In this document: in pieces, positions 1 through 35,908 of the stretch
How positions within the stretch are numbered: the first letter of the stretch is position 1
Layout of the letters: each line of letters opens with the position of its first letter
Assembly (NCBI GenBank): GCA_902519235.1
Contig: CABYJE010000009.1
Location: forward strand, 1 to 35,908
Length of the DNA stretch: 35,908 bases
Reading direction: 5' to 3'
Source: an uncultured Prochlorococcus sp.
GTDB lineage: Bacteria > Cyanobacteriota > Cyanobacteriia > PCC-6307 > Cyanobiaceae
The notes under the pieces: model-generated
What the model saw: only the letters and a program-made list of their open reading frames with translations
What the model was told of the DNA's origin: nothing
Database searches by the model: none
Position numbers and translations under genes: made by a program

Positions 1-152
1 AAAACTAACTTATTTTTATGGTTAATTAATTTATGAAATTTATCATTTCCAAAAAATAATGAGTCTTCCAAAATCAAAACTTCACAATTTATTTTTAAGA
101 TTGGGCTTTCTCTAAAAAGTTGATTCGGGAAAATAATTGATACTTGTTTCAT
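1..152 (-). CDS. Photolyase/cryptochrome-related protein (DPRP type), N-terminal fragment
   Basis: Only the first 50 residues are present; the gene runs off the left edge. The fragment starts [13 protein letters not shown] and continues with [10 protein letters not shown] and a KFH motif. This pattern matches the N-terminal alpha/beta domain of the deoxyribodipyrimidine photolyase-related (FeS-BCP/DPRP) family, flavoproteins with a 4Fe-4S cluster that repair UV lesions or act as cryptochromes. The ATG overlaps the stop of the upstream DUF2256 gene as ATGA, so the two are probably translationally coupled. The catalytic FAD domain and Fe-S cysteines lie outside the window, so the assignment rests on the N-terminal motif and on the neighbours. 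Confidence 0.72.
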
Positions 153-280
153 CTTTGCGACTTCCTGTTACTGCATCTTTTTGAACAGTAGATAACATCA
201 TCCCAACAGTTTTTCCATTTTTTACGCCACTCAAACGGCCTATTGCAAACAGGACAAGTTTTAGTAGAAAGATTTTTCAA
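149..280 (-). CDS. DUF2256 family small zinc-finger-like protein (43 aa)
   Basis: This short gene was found by reading the minus strand. It opens with TTG (an in-frame TAA lies two codons upstream and no ATG is available) and ends in a TGA that overlaps the next ATG. The protein has CPVC at residues 9-12, a PFEWRKKW segment, then YC at 31-32 and RC at 35-36. This C-x2-C...C-x3-C layout is typical of DUF2256 and suggests one bound zinc. The family has no established function, but it recurs beside photolyase/cryptochrome-related genes, as here. It sits 3 bases after the TIGR03643 gene. Confidence 0.85.
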
Positions 281-283
281 AAT

Positions 284-520
284 TTATAATTTTCTTTTAT
301 GAGTAGATTTAAATCTAGTTGAATCTTTAAGGGCCATATGTTTTGTATTTCTTCCCGAAACTCTCTTTCTCCAGACTTTGAAAGATTTGGGTTTAAGATT
401 TTGACGCATAATTTTTATAGCATCTTCCTCTTTTAAACCAAATTGATACTCGATAGCTTCAAAGGGTGTTCTATCTTCCCAACACATTTCTATTATTCTG
501 TCTATATCGATACTTTCCAT
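284..520 (-). CDS. TIGR03643/DUF2805 family protein (78 aa)
   Basis: This small basic protein contains IIEMCWEDRTPFEAIEYQFG, the recognisable core of the DUF2805/TIGR03643 family, followed by a helix and a WRKRVSGRNTKH segment. The N-terminal part looks like a helix-turn-helix-type fold, and the C-terminus is rich in Lys and Arg, which would suit nucleic-acid binding; that is inference. No function is established for the family. It lies 2 bases downstream of the DCC-family gene and 3 bases upstream of the DUF2256 gene, so it probably shares a transcript with them and the photolyase-related gene. Confidence 0.88.
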   Translation of the reverse strand: MESIDIDRIIEMCWEDRTPFEAIEYQFGLKEEDAIKIMRQNLKPKSFKVWRKRVSGRNTKHMALKDSTRFKSTHKRKL

Positions 521-522
521 AT

Positions 523-927
523 TTATTGTTCACATTGTGAGGTACAAAGTTTTTCAATATCGGATCTACCTGTAATTTGAAGTCTATATTTTGCCCAATA
601 TCTGTAAACCAATCTTAATAATGGAGATAAGAACTTAATCTTCAAGGGATAGTAAACCCAACCTAAACCAACTAATTCATAAGAATATGCAAGTACATCT
701 AGTCCCCTAATAATTTCACCATTTTCAATAATCCCATGCAGGTTTGACATGGCTTCTGAATACGAGATGTCATTAAAAAGACTTTGATCATAATCCTTAC
801 TATTAATATCTATAAATGCAATTTGATTTAAGGTATCTCTTTTTTTAAGAAAATTTGTTTCTCTTAAACAAAGTGGACAACCACCATCGAATAAAAAGGT
901 TAATTTATTTTTCATATTTTTATCCAA
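523..927 (-). CDS. DCC-family thiol-disulfide oxidoreductase-like protein (DUF393)
   Basis: A 134-aa protein. FLFDGGCPLC at residues 11-20 is the family signature: Asp14 followed by the C17-P-L-C20 redox pair. A hydrophobic stretch lies around residues 75-105. The C-terminus has two further cysteines (LCTSQC). DCC proteins have a thioredoxin-like fold and presumably exchange thiols and disulfides with an unknown partner. It is the first gene of the run leading to the photolyase-related gene, so a link to redox maintenance or cofactor loading of that enzyme is possible but unproven. Met5 is an alternative start. Confidence 0.88.
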   Translation of the reverse strand: MDKNMKNKLTFLFDGGCPLCLRETNFLKKRDTLNQIAFIDINSKDYDQSLFNDISYSEAMSNLHGIIENGEIIRGLDVLAYSYELVGLGWVYYPLKIKFLSPLLRLVYRYWAKYRLQITGRSDIEKLCTSQCEQ

Positions 928-1046
928 ATATAGAAATTAAATAACTTTTTTGTGGAATAAAAATTTTTTTTTAGAGTACAAGCTTTATAAAGCCTTAATA
1001 ATTGCCAGTTCTAATTTAGTGAAATTATATTATCTTATTAATTAAT

Positions 1047-1078
1047 AAGCCATTGATTAAGGGATACATCAATGGTTT
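1047..1078 (-). terminator. Hairpin downstream of the 67-aa gene, possible terminator
   Basis: An 11-bp stem (CCATTGAT core plus flanking A/T and one G-T pair) encloses a 10-base loop. It lies about 15 bases after the stop of the 67-aa gene when read on the minus strand. The tail is TTATTAATT rather than a clean T run, so it may be a weak terminator or simply a stabilising 3' hairpin. The rest of 928-1092 is AT-rich with no visible gene. Confidence 0.4.
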
Positions 1079-1092
1079 AAAACTATTAATGA

Positions 1093-1296
1093 TCATTCAT
1101 CTAGAAGATGAACTCCTTCTCCTACGTCAGGAGTAAATTTACAATACTTTTCAAAAATAAGTCCAACACCTCTCATTTTTTCTCCTAATTCATCGTTAAA
1201 TCTATTCCATTCTTCCGATTCACGCTCAGGTAAATCCCACCCTTGTTTTTCTACCATACTTGTTATTACTGTATAGTCCCATTCTATGTATGCCAT
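1093..1296 (-). CDS. Conserved-looking hypothetical protein (67 aa)
   Basis: I do not recognise a named family. The protein is acidic and soluble: it has no signal peptide or membrane segment, it is rich in Glu, Asp and Trp, and it ends in GEGVHLLDE. It is flanked by non-coding DNA on both sides and ends close to a hairpin, which supports a separate small transcription unit. The sensible start at MAYIEWDY, the unbiased composition and the lack of an overlapping gene suggest it is real. Confidence 0.65.
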   Translation of the reverse strand: MAYIEWDYTVITSMVEKQGWDLPERESEEWNRFNDELGEKMRGVGLIFEKYCKFTPDVGEGVHLLDE

Positions 1297-1363
1297 TGAG
1301 TTAATTTAAACTACCAAAATATTATAAACCAAGAGATTTAATAGGTAATCAATATTTTTTGAA

Positions 1364-1369
1364 TATAAT
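1364..1369 (+). promoter_or_regulatory. Candidate -10 box for trmH
   Basis: A consensus TATAAT lies 23 bases upstream of the trmH ATG and would give a leader of about 17 bases. No clear -35 is seen, as is common in Prochlorococcus. In DNA this AT-rich the match alone is weak evidence. Confidence 0.4.
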
Positions 1370-1392
1370 TTAAAAGTGTGAAAAAATTATAA

Positions 1393-2064
1393 ATGTCAAT
1401 TTTGCCAAGAAGATTTGAACGCATCAAAAGTGTTTTAAATTGTAGAATGAAAAACTTGACTGTTTTAGTTGAGGATGTCAATAAACCTCATAATTTATCT
1501 GCGATATTAAGAACATGTGATGCAGCAGGAGTTTTCGAAGCAAATTTTATTAGCAAAACGAATGCCGTTAAGACTTTTAATAGTACTGCTCAAGGAAGTC
1601 AAAAATGGGTAAAACTGAATAATCATGAAAACACTATCACGGCAATATCTGATTTAAAGAATAAGGGTTTTAAATTATATGGAACGACTCTTAATAGTGA
1701 ATCAATAGATTATAGAAATTTTGATTATTCTCAAAATACATGTTTTGTTTTAGGAGCAGAAAAATGGGGAATAAGTAATGAACTTATATCAATGGTTGAT
1801 CAATCAATTTTTATACCTATGAGAGGTATGGTTCAATCTCTGAATGTTTCAGTTGCTGCTTCTATATTATTATTTGAAGCTGTTCGCCAAAGAAAAAATA
1901 AAAGTATATTGCCCTCTAATGGAGAAGGGTTAAATATGGATGAATATCAAAAAACACTTTTTGAATGGTGTTACCCAGAATTAGCTACGGTGTATAAAAA
2001 ATCAGCTAAAGAATATCCAAAGTTGAATGATCAAGGAGAACTTGATCCTATTACAGATAACTAA
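1393..2064 (+). CDS. trmH: tRNA (guanosine(18)-2'-O)-methyltransferase TrmH
   Basis: A 223-aa SPOUT-superfamily enzyme, close to the usual TrmH length. It carries the three SpoU motifs: NLSAILR at 34-40 (Asn34 and the catalytic Arg40), LGAEKWGIS at about 120-128, and IPMRGMVQSLNVSVAAS at 141-157, the knot that binds SAM. TrmH methylates the ribose of G18 in the tRNA D-loop. The C-terminal helix extension after residue 170 is typical of TrmH rather than RlmB. It is the only plus-strand gene in this part of the window, and its stop lies 2 bases from the convergent permease gene. Confidence 0.93.
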   Translation: MSILPRRFERIKSVLNCRMKNLTVLVEDVNKPHNLSAILRTCDAAGVFEANFISKTNAVKTFNSTAQGSQKWVKLNNHENTITAISDLKNKGFKLYGTTLNSESIDYRNFDYSQNTCFVLGAEKWGISNELISMVDQSIFIPMRGMVQSLNVSVAASILLFEAVRQRKNKSILPSNGEGLNMDEYQKTLFEWCYPELATVYKKSAKEYPKLNDQGELDPITDN

Positions 2065-2066
2065 AT

Positions 2067-2912
2067 TTATTCAGAATTTTGACTATCAAAAATTTCTTCA
2101 AGGTCCTCTCCAATAAAAGAAAGACCTAAAACTAAAAAAAACATTGCCAAACCTGGGAATAAAGCCGTCCACCAGATACCTGTAGGTAAAGCTGCAAGAG
2201 CCAGATTTAAATCACTTCCCCACTCTGGGACATCTGCAGGAACGCCAAGGCCTAAAAATCCTAAACTTCCTAATACCAAAACAGCATCTGCAGCATTTAG
2301 GGTAAGCAGAATAGGCAATGGTGTTATTACATTTGGGAGAATATATTTAAAAATAATTTTTTTAACATCTGCCCCTGCAACTTGAGCTGCCTCCACATAA
2401 GTTTCGGATTTAACCAATATTGTCTGATTTCTGATTAATCTAAAATATTGAGGAGAGTAAACAATACACAATGCCAAAGCCGCGTTAAGGATACCCTTAC
2501 CCAATACAAAAGCCACAACAACTGAAAGCAAAATTACAGGTATTGAAAAAATAGTATCCATTATTAGTGATAAGCATTTATCAAAAAAACCACCAAAATA
2601 TCCACTTAATAATCCCAATGGCAAACCTAAACTTAATGAAAAAAGAATAGCTAAGAATACAACTTCTATCGCTAATGATGATCCTTGCAAAGTTCTTAAG
2701 CAAACATCTCTTCCTAATCTATCAGTGCCACAAAAATGATTAAGAGAAGGAGGGGCAAAGATATCATTGCTTAACATTGAAAATGAATAGCCAAAAAAAT
2801 TATTGGCCTCTAAAAATTTCATTATTAAAACAACAAGAAGATAAAAAAGTACAATTAAAAATCCAGCTTTTCTGATATTTGCGCCGACACGATTAAATGA
2901 GTTAATATCCAA
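2067..2912 (-). CDS. ABC transporter permease, DppC/OppC family
   Basis: A 281-aa inner-membrane permease. HFCGTDRLGRDV at 59-70 is the signature of DppC/OppC-type subunits. EAAQVAGADVKK at 174-185 followed by ILPN at 191-194 is the EAA loop that contacts the ATPase. Hydrophobic segments lie near 17-33, 83-105, 120-140, 142-155, 197-225 and 248-268. The family imports peptides, nickel or similar solutes. No DppB, ATPase or binding-protein gene is nearby, so the substrate cannot be named and the partners must be encoded elsewhere. Confidence 0.9.
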   Translation of the reverse strand: MDINSFNRVGANIRKAGFLIVLFYLLVVLIMKFLEANNFFGYSFSMLSNDIFAPPSLNHFCGTDRLGRDVCLRTLQGSSLAIEVVFLAILFSLSLGLPLGLLSGYFGGFFDKCLSLIMDTIFSIPVILLSVVVAFVLGKGILNAALALCIVYSPQYFRLIRNQTILVKSETYVEAAQVAGADVKKIIFKYILPNVITPLPILLTLNAADAVLVLGSLGFLGLGVPADVPEWGSDLNLALAALPTGIWWTALFPGLAMFFLVLGLSFIGEDLEEIFDSQNSE

Positions 2913-2990
2913 AATCTTTTTTAAAGATATAAATGAAATATACCGAATTCTTTTAAAAATAAATAGCTATAAATTTTAAATTAAAAGAAA

Positions 2991-4799
2991 TTACTGGTTT
3001 AATTTCAAGACTGCCATAAAAGCTTCTTGAGGGACTTCAACTTTACCCATTGCCTTCATCCTCTTTTTACCTTTGGCTTGTTTCTTTAAAAGTTTCTTTT
3101 TCCTAGAAATATCACCCCCATAACATTTAGATAAAACATCTTTTCGCAAAGCACTTATGCTTTCACTTGCAATAATCCTGCTACCGATTGAAGCTTGAAT
3201 AGGTATTTTAAATTGTTGTTTTGGAATAAGTTCTTTTAATTTCTCAACTAAACTTCTGCCAATTCCATAAGCCTTATCTTTATGAACAATAGAAGTTAAT
3301 GGATCTGCTCTTTCTGAATTTATTAGAACATCTAATCTAACAAGGTCATTTTTTCTATAGCCAATCAAATGATATTCCATTGATGCATAACCTTGGGTTC
3401 TACTTTTCATTTGATCAAAAAAATCTGTAACAACTTCTGCTAATGGAATTTCATAAATCAAGGTAACTCGATCTGTTGTTATGTATTTCATATCTATAAA
3501 TACTCCCCTTCTTTCCTGACATAAACCCATTAATGTTCCATTAAATTCATTGGGAGCATAAATTTCCATTTTCACATAAGGCTCTTCTATTGATTCTCTA
3601 AGTTGTGGATCAGGAATTGTAGAAGGATTATCAATAAAGATATGTTCCTGCTGATTTAAATTAACTTTATAAATAACTGATGGTGCAGTTACGATTAGAT
3701 CCAAGTCATATTCTCTTTCTAATCTTTCTTGAACAATCTCCATATGAAGAAGTCCTAGGAATCCGCATCTAAATCCGAAGCCCATTGCGCTACTGGTTTC
3801 GGGCTCATATTTTAAAGCTGCATCAGATAATTGTAATTTTTCGAGTGATACTCTTAAATCTGGGAATTGATCAGCATCAGTCGGGAATAAGCCACAAAAA
3901 ACCATAGGATTTGCTGTCTTATATCCAGGCAAAGGATCATTGGCAGGTGAATTTAAAAGAGTAATTGTATCTCCCACTCTCGCATCAGCAACTGATTTTA
4001 TAGAAGCAGCTAAATAACCAACTTCTCCTGCATGTAATTCATCAACTTGCTGCTGATCAGGCGCCATTATTCCTATCTCATCTAGTTCATAATTTTTCTT
4101 ACTTGCCATTAATAATATTTTTTCTCTCTTATTTAAAGACCCAGATATCACCCTGAAATAAACAATAACTCCCCTGTACGGATCATAATAAGAATCAAAA
4201 ATCAGTGCCTTTGTAGGTAGTTTAATTTCATCTTGAGGAGGAGGGACTCTTCTAACGATTGCTTCCAAAATATCTTTAATACCAACTCCAGTTTTTGCTG
4301 AACAATTTATTGCATTGGATGTATCAAGTCCAATAATTTCCTCTATTTCTTGTTTTATTTTTTCAGCATCAGCCCCTGGTAAATCAACTTTATTTAAAAC
4401 AGGAATTATTTCAAGATTATTTTCTAAGGCAAGATAGACATTAGCTAAGGTTTGAGCTTCTACTCCTTGACTTGCATCAACAACGAGTAAGGCGCCTTCA
4501 CAAGCTTGAAGAGATCTACTAACCTCATAAGAGAAATCAACATGCCCTGGAGTATCTATTAAGTTCAAAACATATTCTTGGGAATCGTCAGCTTTATATT
4601 TCATCCTAGCGGCCTGTAACTTGATAGTAATTCCTCTCTCTCTTTCAAGATCCATACTGTCCAAAAATTGTTCTTGCATATCCCTTTGCTGCACAGTACC
4701 AGTATCTTGAAGCAACCTATCTGCAAGGGTAGATTTACCATGGTCAATATGAGCGATTATGCAGAAATTTCTAATTTTTGAAACCGATATATCAGTCAT
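2991..4799 (-). CDS. lepA: Elongation factor 4 (LepA), back-translocating GTPase
   Basis: A 602-aa translational GTPase of full family length. The G1 loop is AHIDHGKST at 16-24, the switch motif RERGITIK is near 53-60, G3 is DTPGHVDF at 82-89, and G4 is NKVDLPGAD from about 136. The C-terminal domain unique to LepA is present, with [20 protein letters not shown] and a basic tail. LepA acts on the ribosome during initiation and stalled elongation, especially under ionic or light stress. It precedes the permease gene on the minus strand with a 78-base gap. Confidence 0.98.
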
Positions 4800-4854: not shown

Positions 4855-6351
4855 TTATGGATGGAAACCAAAAATGGAATTGTTTCTTTTTTTAATTTCT
4901 TTTATGAAGGTACTGTTTTTTTCAGAGGCTGATCGTTCTGGATAAATTAAGTCATTTATTTTTTTCTTAAGATTATGCTTGTCGTTTAAAAATAAGACTG
5001 ACTTTTCTAGAACCTCAACCATAATTGAGACCGCAGTACTTGCTCCGGGAGATGCTCCTAACAAAGCAGATAATGATCCATCAGATGAATTCACAATCTC
5101 AGTTCCAAATTTCAAAGAGCCACCGCCTTCAGTTTTTTTAATTATTTGGACTCTTTGACCAGCATTCTTTAAATACCAATCAGAAGGATTAGCTGATGGC
5201 ATCATATTTTTTAAATTCTCAACTCTTGAGTTATGGCTCTTTAATGATTGTGATATTAGGTAATTAATTAAATCGTTGTTCTTGAAACCAACGTCTAACA
5301 TAGAAAATATATTATTCTTCTTTATTGAACTAAATAAGTCAAAGTATGAACTTTGTTTTAAAAATTTCGTTGTAAATCCAGCAAAAGGTCCATATAAGAG
5401 AAGTTTTTTATTATCAATCCATCTGGTGTCTAGATGAGGCACAGACATTGGTGGCGATCCAATATCAGCTTTACCATAAACTTTTGAATTATGTTTTTCT
5501 GTTAGATCTTTTTTCTCGCAAATAAGCCATTTCCCACTAACAGGAAATCCACCATAACTTTTTGCTTCTGGAATTTTTGATTTTTGCAAATAATTAATTG
5601 TTTTTCCACCAGCACCAAGAAAAACATAGCCAGTTCTAATTGAAGTTTTTCTACCTTCAGAACTAATTTCTAGTTCCCATTGTTTTTTATCAATTTTCTT
5701 TAAATCTATTAATTCTGTTTTGTATCTAATTTCAACATTTTTGTTTAAGGAAACTAATGACAAATACTCTTTAGTTAAAGCCTCAAAATTAATATCAGTT
5801 CCTCTGCCTATTCTGGTAGCAGCAATTTGAGTAGATGGATTTCTATCTTTTGTTATTAGAGGAGCCCATGATGAAATTTCATCAAAAGATGTAGAAAATT
5901 CCATATCGATAAATTCAGGATTTTCGGTCATTTTCTGAAATCTTTTTTTTAAAAAAGAAATATTATCCTGACCAGACACAAAGCTAATATGAGGAATAAA
6001 TTTTAGAAACTTCTTAATATCAATTTTCCCTGCTTCATACAATGAGGCCCATAAAGACATGGATGTTTCAAAAGAACGATTTATTGAGAGCGCTTTATCT
6101 ATTTTTAGATTTCCTTTTTCATCTAAAGGGGTATAGTTTAATTCGCAATTGGCTGCATGTCCTGTACCTGCATTATTAAAAGCGCCAGTACTTTCACTTC
6201 CTGGAGCATTTAATTTTTCTATAATAACAAATTTTATATCTGGAAAAACTTCTGAAATTAGGAGGGCTAAAGTACTACTCATTATCCCTCCTCCTACTAA
6301 GACTGCATCAAAGTAGCTATTGTCATTAGTGGGATTTTTAGATGAAGTCAC
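4855..6351 (-). CDS. mqo: Malate:quinone oxidoreductase
   Basis: A 498-aa FAD enzyme that oxidises malate to oxaloacetate and passes electrons to quinone at the membrane surface. The N-terminal dinucleotide fold reads [13 protein letters not shown] (residues 17-29). Family markers follow: [17 protein letters not shown], the PVSGKWL segment, and the C-terminal [13 protein letters not shown] flavin-binding stretch. The length matches the family. The gene diverges from nfu across 70 bases, so their promoters share that gap. Its stop is about 55 bases upstream of the lepA start on the same strand. Confidence 0.96.
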
Positions 6352-7201: not shown

Positions 7202-7375
7202 ATGACTACTTTAACTTACAGAGGTAAAAACTACGTTCAAAACAAAGAAGCTGCTAAAAAGCAACTTGTTGAACTTACCTACAGAAGAAACGTATACACC
7301 AACAGAATGGATGACGCTTCTTCAAGTAATGAAAAAGCAGAATTAAATTACAGAGGTGTTAATTACACTAAATAA
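7202..7375 (+). CDS. Riboswitch-controlled DUF4278-like small protein with three YRG repeats (57 aa)
   Basis: Read from the ATG at 7202, the protein opens MTTLTYRGKNYV, the usual start of DUF4278 and 'downstream peptides'. It holds three imperfect nine-residue repeats: LTYRGKNYV (4-12), LTYRRNVYT (25-33) and LNYRGVNYT (48-56). The linkers are charged. It is soluble and basic, with no Cys. The frame is open further upstream (ATG 7166 and 7178, GTG 7184, TTG 7187), but those starts fall in or just after the aptamer. No textbook Shine-Dalgarno lies just before 7202, so the true start is uncertain. By analogy with the glutamine-synthetase inhibitors under glnA-type riboswitches, it may tune nitrogen metabolism; this is not shown. 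Confidence 0.85.
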   Translation: MTTLTYRGKNYVQNKEAAKKQLVELTYRRNVYTNRMDDASSSNEKAELNYRGVNYTK

Positions 7376-7454: not shown

Positions 7455-8249
7455 ATGTCTGAAAGTTGCTGTAATACAAATACATCGAATAAAGCATCTA
7501 ATCAATTCGATCATAAAGATGCGATTCAAGAAAGATATGGTTCAGCCGCACTTGAACAAGAAAGTTGTCTTTGTACACCAGTTGGTTTTAATCCCGTTTT
7601 ACTTGAAGCAATTCCTCAAGAGGTTATAGAAAGAGACTATGGATGTGGTGATCCAACAAAATATGTTCAAAAAAATGATATAGTCTTAGACCTTGGAAGT
7701 GGTAGCGGCAAAAATGCTTTTATTTGTGCCCAAATTGTTGGAAAAGAAGGGAAAGTTATTGGAGTTGATCAGAATCCTGACATGCTTTGTTTATCAAGAT
7801 CAGCCTCTAAAGAAGTTACAAAAAATATAGGTTTTAACAATACAGAATTTCTTGAAGGATCAATTGAAAAACTTGATGAATTAGATGAAGATTTAAATCC
7901 ATTAATCGCCGACAAATCAGTCGATATTATTTTAAGTAATTGCGTTTTAAACTTGGTAAGTCCAGAATCTAGAAATAACCTTCTAAGAAATATAAAAAGA
8001 GTTTTAAACGATAATGGAAGAATTGCAATTAGCGATATTGTCTCTAACAAAAAAGTACCTTTAAGATTGCAAAATGATCATGATCTATGGACAGGATGTA
8101 TTAGTGGAGCATGGTATGAACCAGACTTTATAAGTGATTTTAAAGAACTAGGATTTAAAAATTTAGAATTTGCAGAAAGAAGTGCTGAACCTTGGAAAGT
8201 AATTGAGGATATTGAATTTAGAACAGTAACTTTAGTGGGCAATATTTAA
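7455..8249 (+). CDS. arsM: ArsM-like SAM-dependent methyltransferase (264 aa)
   Basis: The start at 7455 is preferred because the longer open frame runs back through the terminator. The SAM site is LDLGSGSG (78-85), with GVDQNPDM at 103-110. The three As(III)-binding cysteines of arsenite methyltransferases have counterparts here: YGCGDP (Cys64), SNCVLNL (Cys163) and TGCISGAWY (Cys215). The N-terminus has an extra Cys pair (5-6) and C-L-C at 38-40. ArsM methylates arsenite to volatile or less toxic products, relevant where phosphate is low and arsenate is taken up. A related arsenosugar-pathway or sulfur-substrate methyltransferase is possible, so substrate confidence is moderate. Confidence 0.75.
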   Translation: MSESCCNTNTSNKASNQFDHKDAIQERYGSAALEQESCLCTPVGFNPVLLEAIPQEVIERDYGCGDPTKYVQKNDIVLDLGSGSGKNAFICAQIVGKEGKVIGVDQNPDMLCLSRSASKEVTKNIGFNNTEFLEGSIEKLDELDEDLNPLIADKSVDIILSNCVLNLVSPESRNNLLRNIKRVLNDNGRIAISDIVSNKKVPLRLQNDHDLWTGCISGAWYEPDFISDFKELGFKNLEFAERSAEPWKVIEDIEFRTVTLVGNI

Positions 8250-8279: not shown

Positions 8280-9455
8280 ATGAGAAATAATCTAAGAGAT
8301 CAAATACCCGCATTAAAAAATAAGTATTATTTCAACTATGGCGGTCAAGGACCATTACCAAAATCTTCTCTAGAAGCAATAGTTAAAACTTGGGAAATTA
8401 TACAAGATTTAGGACCATTTACTAATGATATGTGGCCTTTTATTTATAAAGAAATATTGACCACAAAAAGAATCATTGCACAAAAATTAGGTGTCAATTC
8501 AAAGAATGTAGCTCTTACCGAAAACATCTCTTCTGGTATGATTTTGCCCTTCTGGGGAATAAAAGTAAAAGAGGGAGAAGAGTTGTTAATAAGTGACTGT
8601 GAACATCCTGGAGTAGTGGCTGCAAGTCGTGAATTTTGCAGGAGAAATAAACTAATATTCAAAATTTTGCCAATCCAAAAAATTAAAAATCTAAACGACG
8701 AAAATATAATTTTAGAGATTTTGAAAAATCTAAATAGTAAGACTAAGATCCTAATTATTTCTCATATCTTATGGAACTTTGGATATAAAATCCCTTTAAA
8801 AAAAATTTCTATCGAATTAAAAAATAATCGAGAAGATTCTTATTTACTTGTTGATGGTGCTCAAACCTTTGGTCACATAAATATTGAAAAAGAAGTTTTT
8901 TATTCCGATTTATATTCAATAACTTCTCATAAATGGGCATGTGGACCAGAAGGACTTGGAGCAATTTATGTCTCAGATAGATTTATTCATGAAACAGATC
9001 CAACAATAATTGGTTGGAAATCATTAAAAAAAGAACAAGGTATTTATGAGCCTTCACATAATCTTTTTCATGATGATGCAAGGAAATTTGAAATAGCTAC
9101 CTCTTGTATTCCTTTACTTGCTGGGCTTCGGAATTCTTTAGATCTTTTGGATAAAGACTGCCATGAAAAAGAAAAAAACAAAAATATCAAAAAATTAAGT
9201 GGAAAACTTTGGGATGAATTAAATCAATCAAAGGGTGTTGAATTAGTTTTAGAAAAAAAATATTTAAATGGGATTGTTAGTTTTAATATCGAAAATATTA
9301 AAGATAAGGATAAATATGTAAAGAAACTTGGAGAAAAGAAAATTTGGATTAGAGTTATAGAAGATCCAAAATGGTTTAGAGCATGCGTACATCAAATGAC
9401 TACAGAAGCTGAGATTGATTTACTTGCTAGGGAAATAAAAAAAATATTAACTTAA
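8280..9455 (+). CDS. Aminotransferase class V PLP enzyme, cysteine/cystine lyase (C-DES)-like
   Basis: A 391-aa fold-type I PLP enzyme. NYGGQGPLP lies at the N-terminus, His109 (CEHPG) should stack on PLP, Asp192 (VDGAQTFGH) binds the ring nitrogen, and Lys218 (SITSHKWACG) forms the Schiff base. The mobile active-site Cys loop of true cysteine desulfurases is not evident. This favours the cyanobacterial cysteine/cystine lyase (C-DES) branch, which releases persulfide from cystine, or an epimerase-like relative. The gene starts 30 bases after the ArsM-like gene on the same strand and is probably co-transcribed with it. Confidence 0.8.
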   Translation: MRNNLRDQIPALKNKYYFNYGGQGPLPKSSLEAIVKTWEIIQDLGPFTNDMWPFIYKEILTTKRIIAQKLGVNSKNVALTENISSGMILPFWGIKVKEGEELLISDCEHPGVVAASREFCRRNKLIFKILPIQKIKNLNDENIILEILKNLNSKTKILIISHILWNFGYKIPLKKISIELKNNREDSYLLVDGAQTFGHINIEKEVFYSDLYSITSHKWACGPEGLGAIYVSDRFIHETDPTIIGWKSLKKEQGIYEPSHNLFHDDARKFEIATSCIPLLAGLRNSLDLLDKDCHEKEKNKNIKKLSGKLWDELNQSKGVELVLEKKYLNGIVSFNIENIKDKDKYVKKLGEKKIWIRVIEDPKWFRACVHQMTTEAEIDLLAREIKKILT

Positions 9456-32701: not shown

Positions 32702-33145
32702 TTAATCTTTAATACTCAAATATCCAATGATTCCTTCAAGAGCTAAGGAATAACTGGATATACCAAATCCACTAATAATTCCTATAGCTTTATCTGTAAG
32801 AAAGGATTCTTTACGAAAATCTTCTCTACTGAAAATATTTGAAATATGCAATTCTACAAAAGGAATTTTCGATCCAATTAAAGCATCACGAATAGAAATC
32901 GAGGTATGAGTAAAAGCGCCAGCATTTATAAGGATACCTTGGATACTTTTTACAGACTCCTGAATTTTATCTACTATTTCTCCTTCATGATTACTTTGAA
33001 AACATTCAAGATTAATACTTTTTTCTTTAGCAACTTTAGTTAAATCTTTTTCTATATCACTCAATGTTTTATTACCATATATTTCAGGTTCTCTAGTGCC
33101 CAAAAGATTTAAATTTGGTCCATTTATCAATAAAATATTCATCAT
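32702..33145 (-). CDS. aroQ: 3-dehydroquinate dehydratase, type II
   Basis: The start at [16 protein letters not shown] (33145) is preferred over an upstream in-frame ATG, because family members begin here and the extra 21 residues are unrelated hydrophobic sequence. It gives 147 aa, the normal size. Catalytic Arg18 and Tyr23 lie in [37 protein letters not shown] and [14 protein letters not shown] follow. The enzyme forms a dodecamer in the shikimate pathway. It leads the long minus-strand operon and diverges from tRNA-Tyr. Confidence 0.95.
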
Positions 33146-33244
33146 CAATAAAGTCTTCTCTTTACAAATGCTATCTAGAAAGAAACAAAAAAACCAAAAC
33201 AATTTCACACAAAGTGTCCATTAACTGATAAGTTCAAATAGTGG

Positions 33245-33326
33245 GGGTCGGTGCCCGAGTGGTTAAAGGGGGCGGACTGTAAATCCGCTGGCTCTGCCTA
33301 CGTTGGTTCAAATCCAACCCGGCCCA
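33245..33326 (+). tRNA. tRNA-Tyr(GTA)
   Basis: The acceptor GGGTCGG pairs with CCGGCCC (one T-G pair) and the discriminator is A. The anticodon arm GCGGACTGTAAATCCGC presents GTA. The long variable arm (CTGGCTCTGCCTACG region) and the T arm TTGGTTCAAATCCAA follow. At 82 nt with an extra arm, this is a class II tRNA, as expected for bacterial Tyr. CCA is not encoded. Confidence 0.96.
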
Positions 33327-33336
33327 CTTCAAAATT

Positions 33337-33408
<72 letters not shown>

Positions 33409-33437
33409 TAAAACCCCTCAAACTTTACCAGTGAGTT

Positions 33438-33623: not shown

Positions 33624-34595
33624 CTAAGAAGGTTCATAAAAGTTTTTGATTATTAAAGATTGATTCTCAAATACAATTATCCCGGAAGACAAAACACCAA
33701 CAACTGAAGCATCATCAAATAAGCTTGCTAGGTAATCTAAGGAATAAAAATTACCGAATTTCAATTTCATCAACCCAAGCTTTAATAAGCCATTAGCTGA
33801 TATAAATCTAATTCCATGTTTTTTTAAATTATGATAGAAAGTTTTCGATCTATTTCCAACATTACTTGTACACTTTTGATTATCAAATGGTAATAAATCA
33901 GTTTCTTCTCCACCAATTAAGAGAAAAGTATAAAAAGTTTTTGATTTCAAAATATTTTTAATTTCTTTCTTATATGCAATTATTTGGGAATAATATCTAT
34001 CCTCATCCATCATTTTATGAAATGTTATTTTGGCTTCTGCCACAAACAAATTACCTCCGCTGGATGCACAAATATCCATCCTGCCTCCTCTATTCCTACT
34101 TTTAATTTTCATACCCACCTCAAGAGCGACTTTAGGATTATCCTCTTTAGCTAAAAATTCAATTACTTTTGCACCCCAAACAGAGATATTTTTAGTTTCA
34201 TTTATTCCAGTAAAGTCCTCAAAACTTTTATATTTTATTTTATTTTTAAGAGATTTTATTATAGGGAGTTTAATAAGATTATTTTCTGAAGAAACATCAT
34301 TTCTAAAATCAATTTTTCCACAATCTGAGCATTGAGAATTTAATTTATATTTATCATCAATATTTATAAGATTTCCTGGACATGAGAAAACGCAAAACAT
34401 GCAACTTATACATTTGGTATTATCGATTTCAATAGCACTTTTAGAGCTATCAATACAATCTATTTCATGAGCCACCATATTATTCTTTAAACCTTTAGGA
34501 GAATTATTTATAAAATCCGACAAATAACTAAACTTTTTTGTTTCTAAAGTTAAGCATGGTTGAAATTTGTTATATTCGAAAGAGCAATTTTTCAT
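33624..34595 (-). CDS. 4Fe-4S ferredoxin-like domain fused to a PD-(D/E)XK nuclease (323 aa)
   Basis: The N-terminal part has C62-x2-C65-x2-C68-x3-C72-P (KCISCMFCVFSCPGN), a full ferredoxin-type 4Fe-4S motif. C89-x2-C92 follows, and C4, C14 and C47 might help a second metal site. The C-terminal part has Glu159 (ALEVGMKI), Asp174 (GRMDICAS) and Glu187-x-Lys189 (FVAEAKIT), the PD-(D/E)XK active-site pattern, and then Gln204-x3-Tyr208 (QIIAY), the RecB/Cas4-type QxxxY motif. Together these indicate a redox- or structure-dependent DNA nuclease. I know no named family with this exact order. It overlaps the 390-aa gene by ATGA. A restriction or defence role is inference. Confidence 0.82.
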   Translation of the reverse strand: MKNCSFEYNKFQPCLTLETKKFSYLSDFINNSPKGLKNNMVAHEIDCIDSSKSAIEIDNTKCISCMFCVFSCPGNLINIDDKYKLNSQCSDCGKIDFRNDVSSENNLIKLPIIKSLKNKIKYKSFEDFTGINETKNISVWGAKVIEFLAKEDNPKVALEVGMKIKSRNRGGRMDICASSGGNLFVAEAKITFHKMMDEDRYYSQIIAYKKEIKNILKSKTFYTFLLIGGEETDLLPFDNQKCTSNVGNRSKTFYHNLKKHGIRFISANGLLKLGLMKLKFGNFYSLDYLASLFDDASVVGVLSSGIIVFENQSLIIKNFYEPS

Positions 34596-35764
34596 GAAAG
34601 GATGTGTTTTATTATTTTTAAAATTTCATAGGGCGCATTAAGATTTAATTCTTGCATATTTAACCCACATAATGGTTTAACATTTAAGTCATCAATAACT
34701 CTAAAGGGTATCCCTGCAGCAAATCCAATTTTAATTTCCTCAAACATTATATCTTCAAAATTTTTATCATCAACAATAAATTGATCTGGAAAGCTTTTCA
34801 TTTTTATAATTAAATTTTTTATATTTAACAATCTATTTTTTTTATATGCGTCGTTTAAAGAATGTAATAAAGCTAGTCTTCTATTTTTGATTTTAGGCTC
34901 AACCTCAAGTGTTACTTTTCTAATATTTTGTTGATTATTTTCTCGAAGGGCACGAGTTAGTTTAGTTAAATTATTATAGTCCAAAGGTTTTTCAGTTATA
35001 AATTCATTTTCGAAGATGAAAAAAGGAAATTCATCAATTAAATAATCTCTTCTATTTCTATTTTTTTGAAGAACATAATTTCTTTTATCTGCTATTTGAG
35101 AATTTTTAAGATCTATTGGATAGAAGAAATTAAGCCATGTTCCCCAAGCTAATAAACAACTTTTTGTCCTAGTATTGCTATCTTTTTCTGAACCACTTGA
35201 GATTATAATTCTTTCATCATTATAGGTAACATATTCTTTACCAGTATTAGGGTATCCAACGTAAATATCCTCTGTTTTAAAACTTTTTTTATTTTCGATA
35301 TAAATCTGTCCTAATAATCCAATCATCAAACCATTTTTCAGAATACTTTCCTTAAAGATTGATAAAAAAGTTTCGCTATTAATTTCACTATTTGCAAATT
35401 TCAATCCTAGATTTGTTAGTCTTATTTCCTTATTTTTTCTTTCAAATAAACCTAATGAGTGCAAAGCGTTTATGGTATTGCTTACCTCTTTCTGTTTAGT
35501 TGAGTCAATATATACGCCATTTGTTAAGGCACAACCTGATTCATCTAGTGGATTCTCTTTATAAGGACAATAATTTAAATCTTTTATTGAATTATGTTTC
35601 TCTAAAATACTACAAAAATTATGGATATTTAGTGAATTCTGATCAAATTTTATATCCTTCATATTAAAAATTTGATCTGTTGAAAATTTAGTCGCTGTAA
35701 ACTGACATATTGCATGTAAACATATTGGTCTTGCTGGAGGATTGCGATTAATAAGATATGACAT
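34592..35764 (-). CDS. Unknown cysteine-containing protein with predicted winged helix (390 aa)
   Basis: I do not recognise this protein. Near the N-terminus C15-x4-C20 is followed by C66 and C78, which might form a metal or Fe-S site. Residues about 90-125 (KEVSNTINALHSLGLFER, then IRLTNLGLKFA) look like a winged helix, with a recognition helix and wing. The rest is mixed alpha/beta and helical, Lys/Asn-rich, with a basic QKNRNRRDYL stretch near 233-242. There is no membrane segment. It is translationally coupled to the Fe-S nuclease, so a DNA-recognition or regulatory subunit is plausible but unproven. Confidence 0.72.
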   Translation of the reverse strand: MSYLINRNPPARPICLHAICQFTATKFSTDQIFNMKDIKFDQNSLNIHNFCSILEKHNSIKDLNYCPYKENPLDESGCALTNGVYIDSTKQKEVSNTINALHSLGLFERKNKEIRLTNLGLKFANSEINSETFLSIFKESILKNGLMIGLLGQIYIENKKSFKTEDIYVGYPNTGKEYVTYNDERIIISSGSEKDSNTRTKSCLLAWGTWLNFFYPIDLKNSQIADKRNYVLQKNRNRRDYLIDEFPFFIFENEFITEKPLDYNNLTKLTRALRENNQQNIRKVTLEVEPKIKNRRLALLHSLNDAYKKNRLLNIKNLIIKMKSFPDQFIVDDKNFEDIMFEEIKIGFAAGIPFRVIDDLNVKPLCGLNMQELNLNAPYEILKIIKHILS

Positions 35765-35774
35765 CAGAAAATTT

Positions 35775-35908
35775 TTAGTATTTTATATAGGTTATAAAAT
35801 TTGAGAGATTTTCTTGTATTGAATTAATTACTTCATTATTTGGCAAATTCCTGGTTCCGATAAAACCTTCAAATATAAATTTAGTTGCATTATATTTTTC
35901 TTTTATAA
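35775..35908 (-). CDS. C-terminal end of an unknown gene cut by the right edge
   Basis: Reading the minus strand from the right edge, an open frame of 43 whole codons ends in TAA at 35775. It reads NATKFIFEGFIGTRNLP and ends FITYIKY. It stops 10 bases before the 390-aa ATG, which fits a continuing operon. The fragment is too short to assign, and its reality rests on the spacing and the open frame. Confidence 0.55.
   Translation of the reverse strand, partial: IKEKYNATKFIFEGFIGTRNLPNNEVINSIQENLSNFITYIKY

Follow-up and report, generated by a model that had tools for sequence, protein, structure and literature searches.

Gene C, the 323-amino-acid open reading frame with an ATG start at positions 33624-34595 (minus strand) of the window, the whole 35,908-nucleotide stretch of uncultured Prochlorococcus DNA analysed here, probably (we put it at about 0.6) encodes the DNA-cutting subunit of a multi-subunit restriction endonuclease, A-B-C, in a Type II-like restriction-modification (R-M) system that entered beside a tRNA-Thr gene. 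The protein combines a Cys cluster with a PD-(D/E)XK-like motif, and its gene is the last of the operon A-B-C, which the contig end cuts inside gene A. The observations behind this reading are a B-C gene order that recurs with 31-32% identity in a distant member of the phylum, nuclease motif residues that are invariant between the two, two methyltransferase genes adjoining the operon of that relative, and a junction at the tRNA where homology to other genomes of the genus stops.

In the mechanism we propose, B, which is winged-helix-like, would recognise the site and C would cut through a PD-(D/E)XK active site made of D174, E187 and K189, with Mg2+ assumed as cofactor, while A, seen whole only in the relative, might be a partner or a half-active subunit. 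Host DNA would be shielded by two SAM-dependent methyltransferases, which only the relative shows, and the presence of two suggests an asymmetric recognition site. The Cys clusters would hold Fe-S centres that steady the fold or the subunit contacts rather than shuttle electrons; the Fe-S centres of Cas4 and AddB stabilise fold or subunit contacts in this way.

Gene C and its sequence motifs

The initial annotation had placed the 323-residue frame correctly, with its strand (minus) left unstated, and the residues it named, C62, C65, C68 and C72 followed by proline, C89 and C92, E159, D174, E187-A-K189, Q204 and Y208, are all found where it put them. On the minus strand, the CxxCxxCxxxC (C62, C65, C68, C72) is encoded at 34380-34412, the second CxxC (C89, C92) at 34320-34331 and the nuclease motif, E159...R172, D174...E187-x-K189...Q204xxxY208, at 33972-34121. 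Beyond residue 92 the only Cys are C176 and C242. The CxxCxxCxxxCP motif arose in none of 200,000 shuffles of the protein, and the Pfam Fer4 model scores 22.0 bits against a cut-off of 21.1; the remaining eight Fer4-type Pfam models listed all fall short of their own cut-offs.

Outside the Cys region no significant match was obtained for gene C in Pfam, PADLOC or the PDB. The C-terminal 200 residues were matched by no Pfam model and by one PHROG of unknown function (E 0.36), and a PDB profile search with residues 119-323 returned nothing up to E 10. Up to E 1, neither Pfam nor PADLOC gave a Cas4 match, and none was among the NCBIfam matches listed (25 of 45). An assignment to BREX (BrxP, E 0.003) was rejected because the match spans the Cys region alone.

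Structure prediction yielded models of low confidence, with a pLDDT of 29.4 for gene C predicted alone and 36.9 for the nuclease part predicted with two sequences. In the latter model a helix (19-31) is followed by three strands (37-42, 55-61, 64-70), a helix (81-98) and a strand (106-108), which is the order expected of the alpha-beta-beta-beta-alpha-beta PD-(D/E)XK core, but at this pLDDT the model is weak. Foldseek found no PDB match to it at E<=0.001, and the 926 matches at E<=10 were treated as meaningless.

A relative with adjoining methyltransferase genes

Searches with gene C found its own genome only, both in the genus (1/266; 0/87 among genomes at least 90% complete) and in an order sample (1/399). 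The phylum sample gave 16 of 386: the own genome, one full-length relative (genome G742; E 4.5e-34, 32% identity over residues 17-317 of gene C) and 14 others whose matches are confined to residues 25-94 and which are taken as unrelated Fe-S proteins or chance. Gene B was found only in its own genome in a family sample (1/400) and, as a two-row profile, in a class sample (1/204); the genus, order, phylum, family and class samples overlap. Among 289 genomes from the class to which the relative belongs, 13 matched the profile at E<=0.001; the match covers the full length in the relative and the Cys region only (profile positions 15-93) in the other 12. Scanning genome contigs returned nothing with the gene C protein and the same relative only (CASDWH010000020.1) with a two-row sub-alignment. 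Viral contig scans revealed no family member, and no full-length match came from plasmid proteins searched with C, B and the relative's C, B and A, or from phage proteins searched with C, B and the relative's B. The family thus has two members found in this analysis, and one of them carries the methyltransferase link. A search for homologues and their neighbours had been suggested in the initial annotation, and what it brought to light is this one full-length relative, a conserved B-C pair and two methyltransferases next to it.

The relative's locus (L018) holds C (294 aa), B (401 aa) and A (205 aa), all on the minus strand; a tmRNA lies upstream of A. The C-B order and the 4-base overlap of C and B are the same in this distant member of the phylum as in the window. 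The two C proteins share 31% identity over 309 positions (E 3e-38) and the two B proteins 32% over 401 positions (E 1e-57). In the nuclease domain, where identity is 34%, all seven residues checked (E159, R172, D174, E187, K189, Q204 and Y208) are identical, D...ExK included, and the RecB-like nuclease motif read earlier from gene C is thereby corroborated; the name of the QxxxY motif goes with RecB-like nucleases.

Convergent with the relative's C, and separated from its end by 2 bases, are two methyltransferase genes (360 and 271 aa) that overlap each other. Both products match Pfam N6_N4_Mtase (55.7 and 159.6 bits, cut-off 26.7) as well as PADLOC Type II methyltransferase models, and it is the adjacency of the C relative to two DNA methyltransferases that points to restriction-modification. 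The resulting five-gene cassette is bounded by the tmRNA and by one further gene, presumably nitroreductase-like, and has a G+C content of 30.0% against 36.6% for the rest of the 20-kb locus.

The same arrangement may be read in another way, with A-B-C as a defence nuclease complex outside R-M that responds, for example, to a different mark on the DNA or to a DNA structure; the methyltransferases would then belong to an independent system next to it, in a defence spot common to both. We regard this as the foremost competitor, albeit an unlikely one. In its favour, the methyltransferases and A-B-C do not form one operon, searches of the genome to which the window belongs turned up no such methyltransferases, and the tRNA site of the window holds unrelated systems in relatives; but the gap between the last methyltransferase and C is minimal and the five genes are grouped, and in many known R-M systems the M and R genes are likewise convergent. 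As to the own genome, which is 71% complete, the searches that found neither of the relative's two methyltransferases nor its A (E<=10) had no positive control, and a search that found no PF01555 match there was positive in 11 of 14 control genomes.

The 360-aa methyltransferase matched four plasmid records at 23-31% identity. In two of them, from Helicobacter and Pseudanabaena, the homologue comes directly after a second methyltransferase, and in the Pseudanabaena record an annotated HNH endonuclease comes after the pair. The Priestia and Bradyrhizobium records have no adjoining second methyltransferase, and in the latter an annotated restriction endonuclease lies two genes upstream of the homologue. 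These few examples would fit a picture of paired methyltransferases serving various restriction enzymes.

Genes A and B

Gene B (34592-35764, minus strand, 390 aa) overlaps C by 4 bases and is the proposed DNA-recognition subunit of the A-B-C restriction endonuclease. The proposal follows weak winged-helix matches around residues 92-161, namely Pfam AAA_assoc_C at residues 94-161 (E 6.7e-5, short of the model's cut-off) and PADLOC WH_III-A at residues 92-126 (E 0.012). When the two-row profile of B was compared with the PDB, a designed helical repeat protein came out best (E 0.52), ahead of an iron-dependent repressor of winged-helix type (E 0.88, positions 90-139); since the designed protein outranks the winged-helix one, neither match is significant. 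Library searches gave no GTPase match for gene B or for the relative's B.

Only the C-terminal 43 residues of gene A (35775-35908, minus strand) are encoded in the window, the remainder lying beyond the contig end. The tail has the position of the third gene in the relative's operon, and its similarity to the relative's A is not significant (376 of 2000 shuffles score as high). In the relative's A we noted the series RRIDL...CLIKV...EQIETY, possibly the trace of a D...K...QxxxY motif that has lost the Glu of ExK. Comparison of the relative's A with C, and of the C profile with A, shows the Cys motif alone at a score that is not significant, and A can therefore be proposed as a paralogue of C by inference only. 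For the relative's A, B and C, Pfam and PADLOC yielded nothing below E 0.02, the weak matches being Usp-48 for A (E 0.026) and EF-hand_7 for C (E 0.16), with none for B, and NCBIfam yielded nothing up to E 0.1. The best match to the nuclease region of the relative's C is PADLOC PDC-S26 (E 0.13, residues 144-206).

The stretch 33624-35908 has a G+C content of 26.6% compared with 31.6% for bases 1-33410, and this is below all 312 overlapping stretches of the same size from those bases.

The Cys clusters

C62, C65, C68 and C242 of gene C are identical in the relative, C72 faces a gap, and C92 lies one column from the relative's C66 and may be the fourth ligand. Fer4 is absent from the relative's C up to E 1. 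The ferredoxin-type domain of the initial annotation is accordingly supported in part: the window protein has the CxxCxxCxxxCP in full and Fer4 just over its cut-off, and the relative keeps CxxCxxC only. Since the nuclease motif is kept and only CxxCxxC of the ferredoxin motif is kept with it, the alignment points to an accessory site, probably of Fe-S type, rather than to a ferredoxin module. Gene B has four Cys (C15, C51, C66 and C78) in common with B of the relative, and the relative's A holds a CxxCxxCxxxC at 65-75, a motif that 110 of 200,000 shuffles also give.

Spacings such as CxxCxxC and CxxCxxCxxxC are typical of 4Fe-4S sites rather than of zinc knuckles, and the former is kept in both C proteins and the latter present in the relative's A; these facts make it rather improbable that the Cys bind zinc in a purely structural role with no Fe-S cluster. 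Such zinc binding would be compatible with the R-M reading, and is favoured by a fourth ligand that is not fixed between gene C and the relative's C and by the Cys4-zinc motifs described for certain restriction enzymes, DpnI and other PD-D/EXK enzymes among them (PMC4081073). More doubtful is a three-subunit Fe-S restriction endonuclease with a cluster in every subunit, at least one of which gates assembly or cutting. Were this true, restriction would be licensed by iron or redox state, and a class of restriction enzymes would be under metabolic control. A redox-gated nuclease of the kind put forward in the initial annotation, in which cutting is switched by a 4Fe-4S centre that responds to oxygen, to the light-driven redox state or to nitrosative stress, could appeal to the Fer4 score (22.0 bits against 21.1) and the full CxxCxxCxxxCP of the window protein, but is highly improbable and, like an electron-transfer module, finds no support, because the canonical ferredoxin signature is not conserved in the relative, which has CxxCxxC without the CP cysteine and no Fer4 match, and no redox partner is among the genes seen up to the contig end, which truncates the window's operon.

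Comparison with known systems

Cas4 and AddB have most of their Cys, in Cas4 a trio, on the C-terminal side of the nuclease core. Gene C differs in that its CxxCxxC stands about 90 residues before the core, and resembles AddB and the Cas4 and RecB-family Fe-S nucleases (PMC4176176) in having a RecB-like PD-(D/E)XK motif with QxxxY plus a Cys site. With ferredoxins (Pfam Fer4) the window protein has the CxxCxxCxxxCP in common, a signature that is incomplete in the relative. A 4Fe-4S ferredoxin-type Cys region has been described for a phosphorothioation-type BREX protein and a subset of SspD (PMC12839542), and a 4Fe-4S centre for DndC (PMC10853773).

By analogy, LlaJI may serve as the closest working model for A-B-C. 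This system is described as having two methyltransferases, which are of the 5mC type, one specificity restriction subunit, R1.LlaJI, with an McrB-like GTPase, and a separate PD-D/EXK cleavage subunit (PMC1459862). Compared by description, the likeness consists in two methyltransferases, as seen in the relative, and in the separate specificity and PD-D/EXK subunits that we propose. A-B-C differs from LlaJI in that B has no GTPase match, that the relative's methyltransferases are N6_N4 enzymes and that sets of Cys occur in A, B and C. A comparison with descriptions of the Type IIT enzymes BbvCI and BtsI (PMC4081073, PMC6326814, PMC2909958) shows a likeness in the non-identical restriction subunits and perhaps in an asymmetric site, which for A-B-C is suggested by the two methyltransferases; unlike BbvCI and BtsI, A-B-C comprises three genes, one of them winged-helix-like. 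The words "iron", "Fe-S" and "ferredoxin" do not occur in the main text of PMC4081073, and among the papers listed in a literature search, with REBASE and most subscription journals outside its scope, no Fe-S restriction endonuclease was apparent from titles and abstract openings.

A-B-C is thus plausibly a new and rare multi-subunit restriction endonuclease with Cys-cluster subunits rather than a redox-gated nuclease acting alone. The idea of an undescribed system survives in part, since a little-known defence system fits, but gene C is one gene of an operon and not a lone nuclease. If confirmed, A-B-C would represent a family of restriction endonucleases that have Fe-S proteins as subunits, and would bring in a further recognition module; one may then ask what would lead a marine phototroph with a small genome to invest iron in restriction.

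The tRNA-Thr site

The operon lies beside a tRNA-Thr (GGT) gene at 33336-33409 (plus strand), a probable integration site that is flanked on its core side by a tRNA-Tyr gene (33245-33327, plus strand). Query 32702-33420 gave a long match in 20 of 24 other genomes of the genus and short pieces only in the other four. All but one of the long matches (19/20) stop at query positions 707-719, which is the 3' end of the tRNA-Thr, and the remaining one stops at 566, at the end of its own contig. With the query extended to 33500, the match in 11 relatives stops at 33408-33421, and downstream of the tRNA-Thr none of these 11 has a stretch of more than 150 bases (E 1e-10) in common with the last 2.5 kb of the window.

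Open reading frames of at least 120 aa were listed at the site for six of the 11 relatives. In four of these (L065, L066, L070 and L074) inspection by eye found no integrase among them, and beyond a few kb of variable sequence the four have DNA in common. In L067 (G005:C1:338000-357200) and L069 (G101:C11:26000-42000) an integrase comes directly after the tRNA-Thr, and a second tRNA-Thr lies about 17 kb and about 13 kb away, respectively; neither feature is seen in the 2.5 kb that the window covers beyond the tRNA. The site of L067 holds matches to Mza B, C, D and E together with Vsr, and that of L069 a C5 methyltransferase with an LlaMI-type restriction endonuclease. The earlier description of the genus as having few known defence genes therefore fails for this site, which we read as an integration spot able to carry defence genes. 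For tRNA-borne integrative islands the term "tycheposon" is in use (PMC10872708), and of the features of this type, a tRNA attachment site, a tyrosine recombinase and a repeated piece of the tRNA, the window shows the tRNA-Thr junction.

On another contig of the own genome (C21; L063, G000:C21) positions 7306-7375 form a 70-base, 96% copy of the tRNA-Thr region with no complete tRNA gene, possibly the trace of an earlier insertion. The same contig has at 1-3255 a long open reading frame, open at the contig start, that by sequence reading resembles a fusion of a RecB-like nuclease with a superfamily 1 helicase. Two small proteins encoded at 5839-6156 and 8502-9071, otherwise different, have the N-terminal leader MKRLLLPLLAALALP in common, and the small open reading frames at 5291-5842 and 7525-7929 have starts similar to it.
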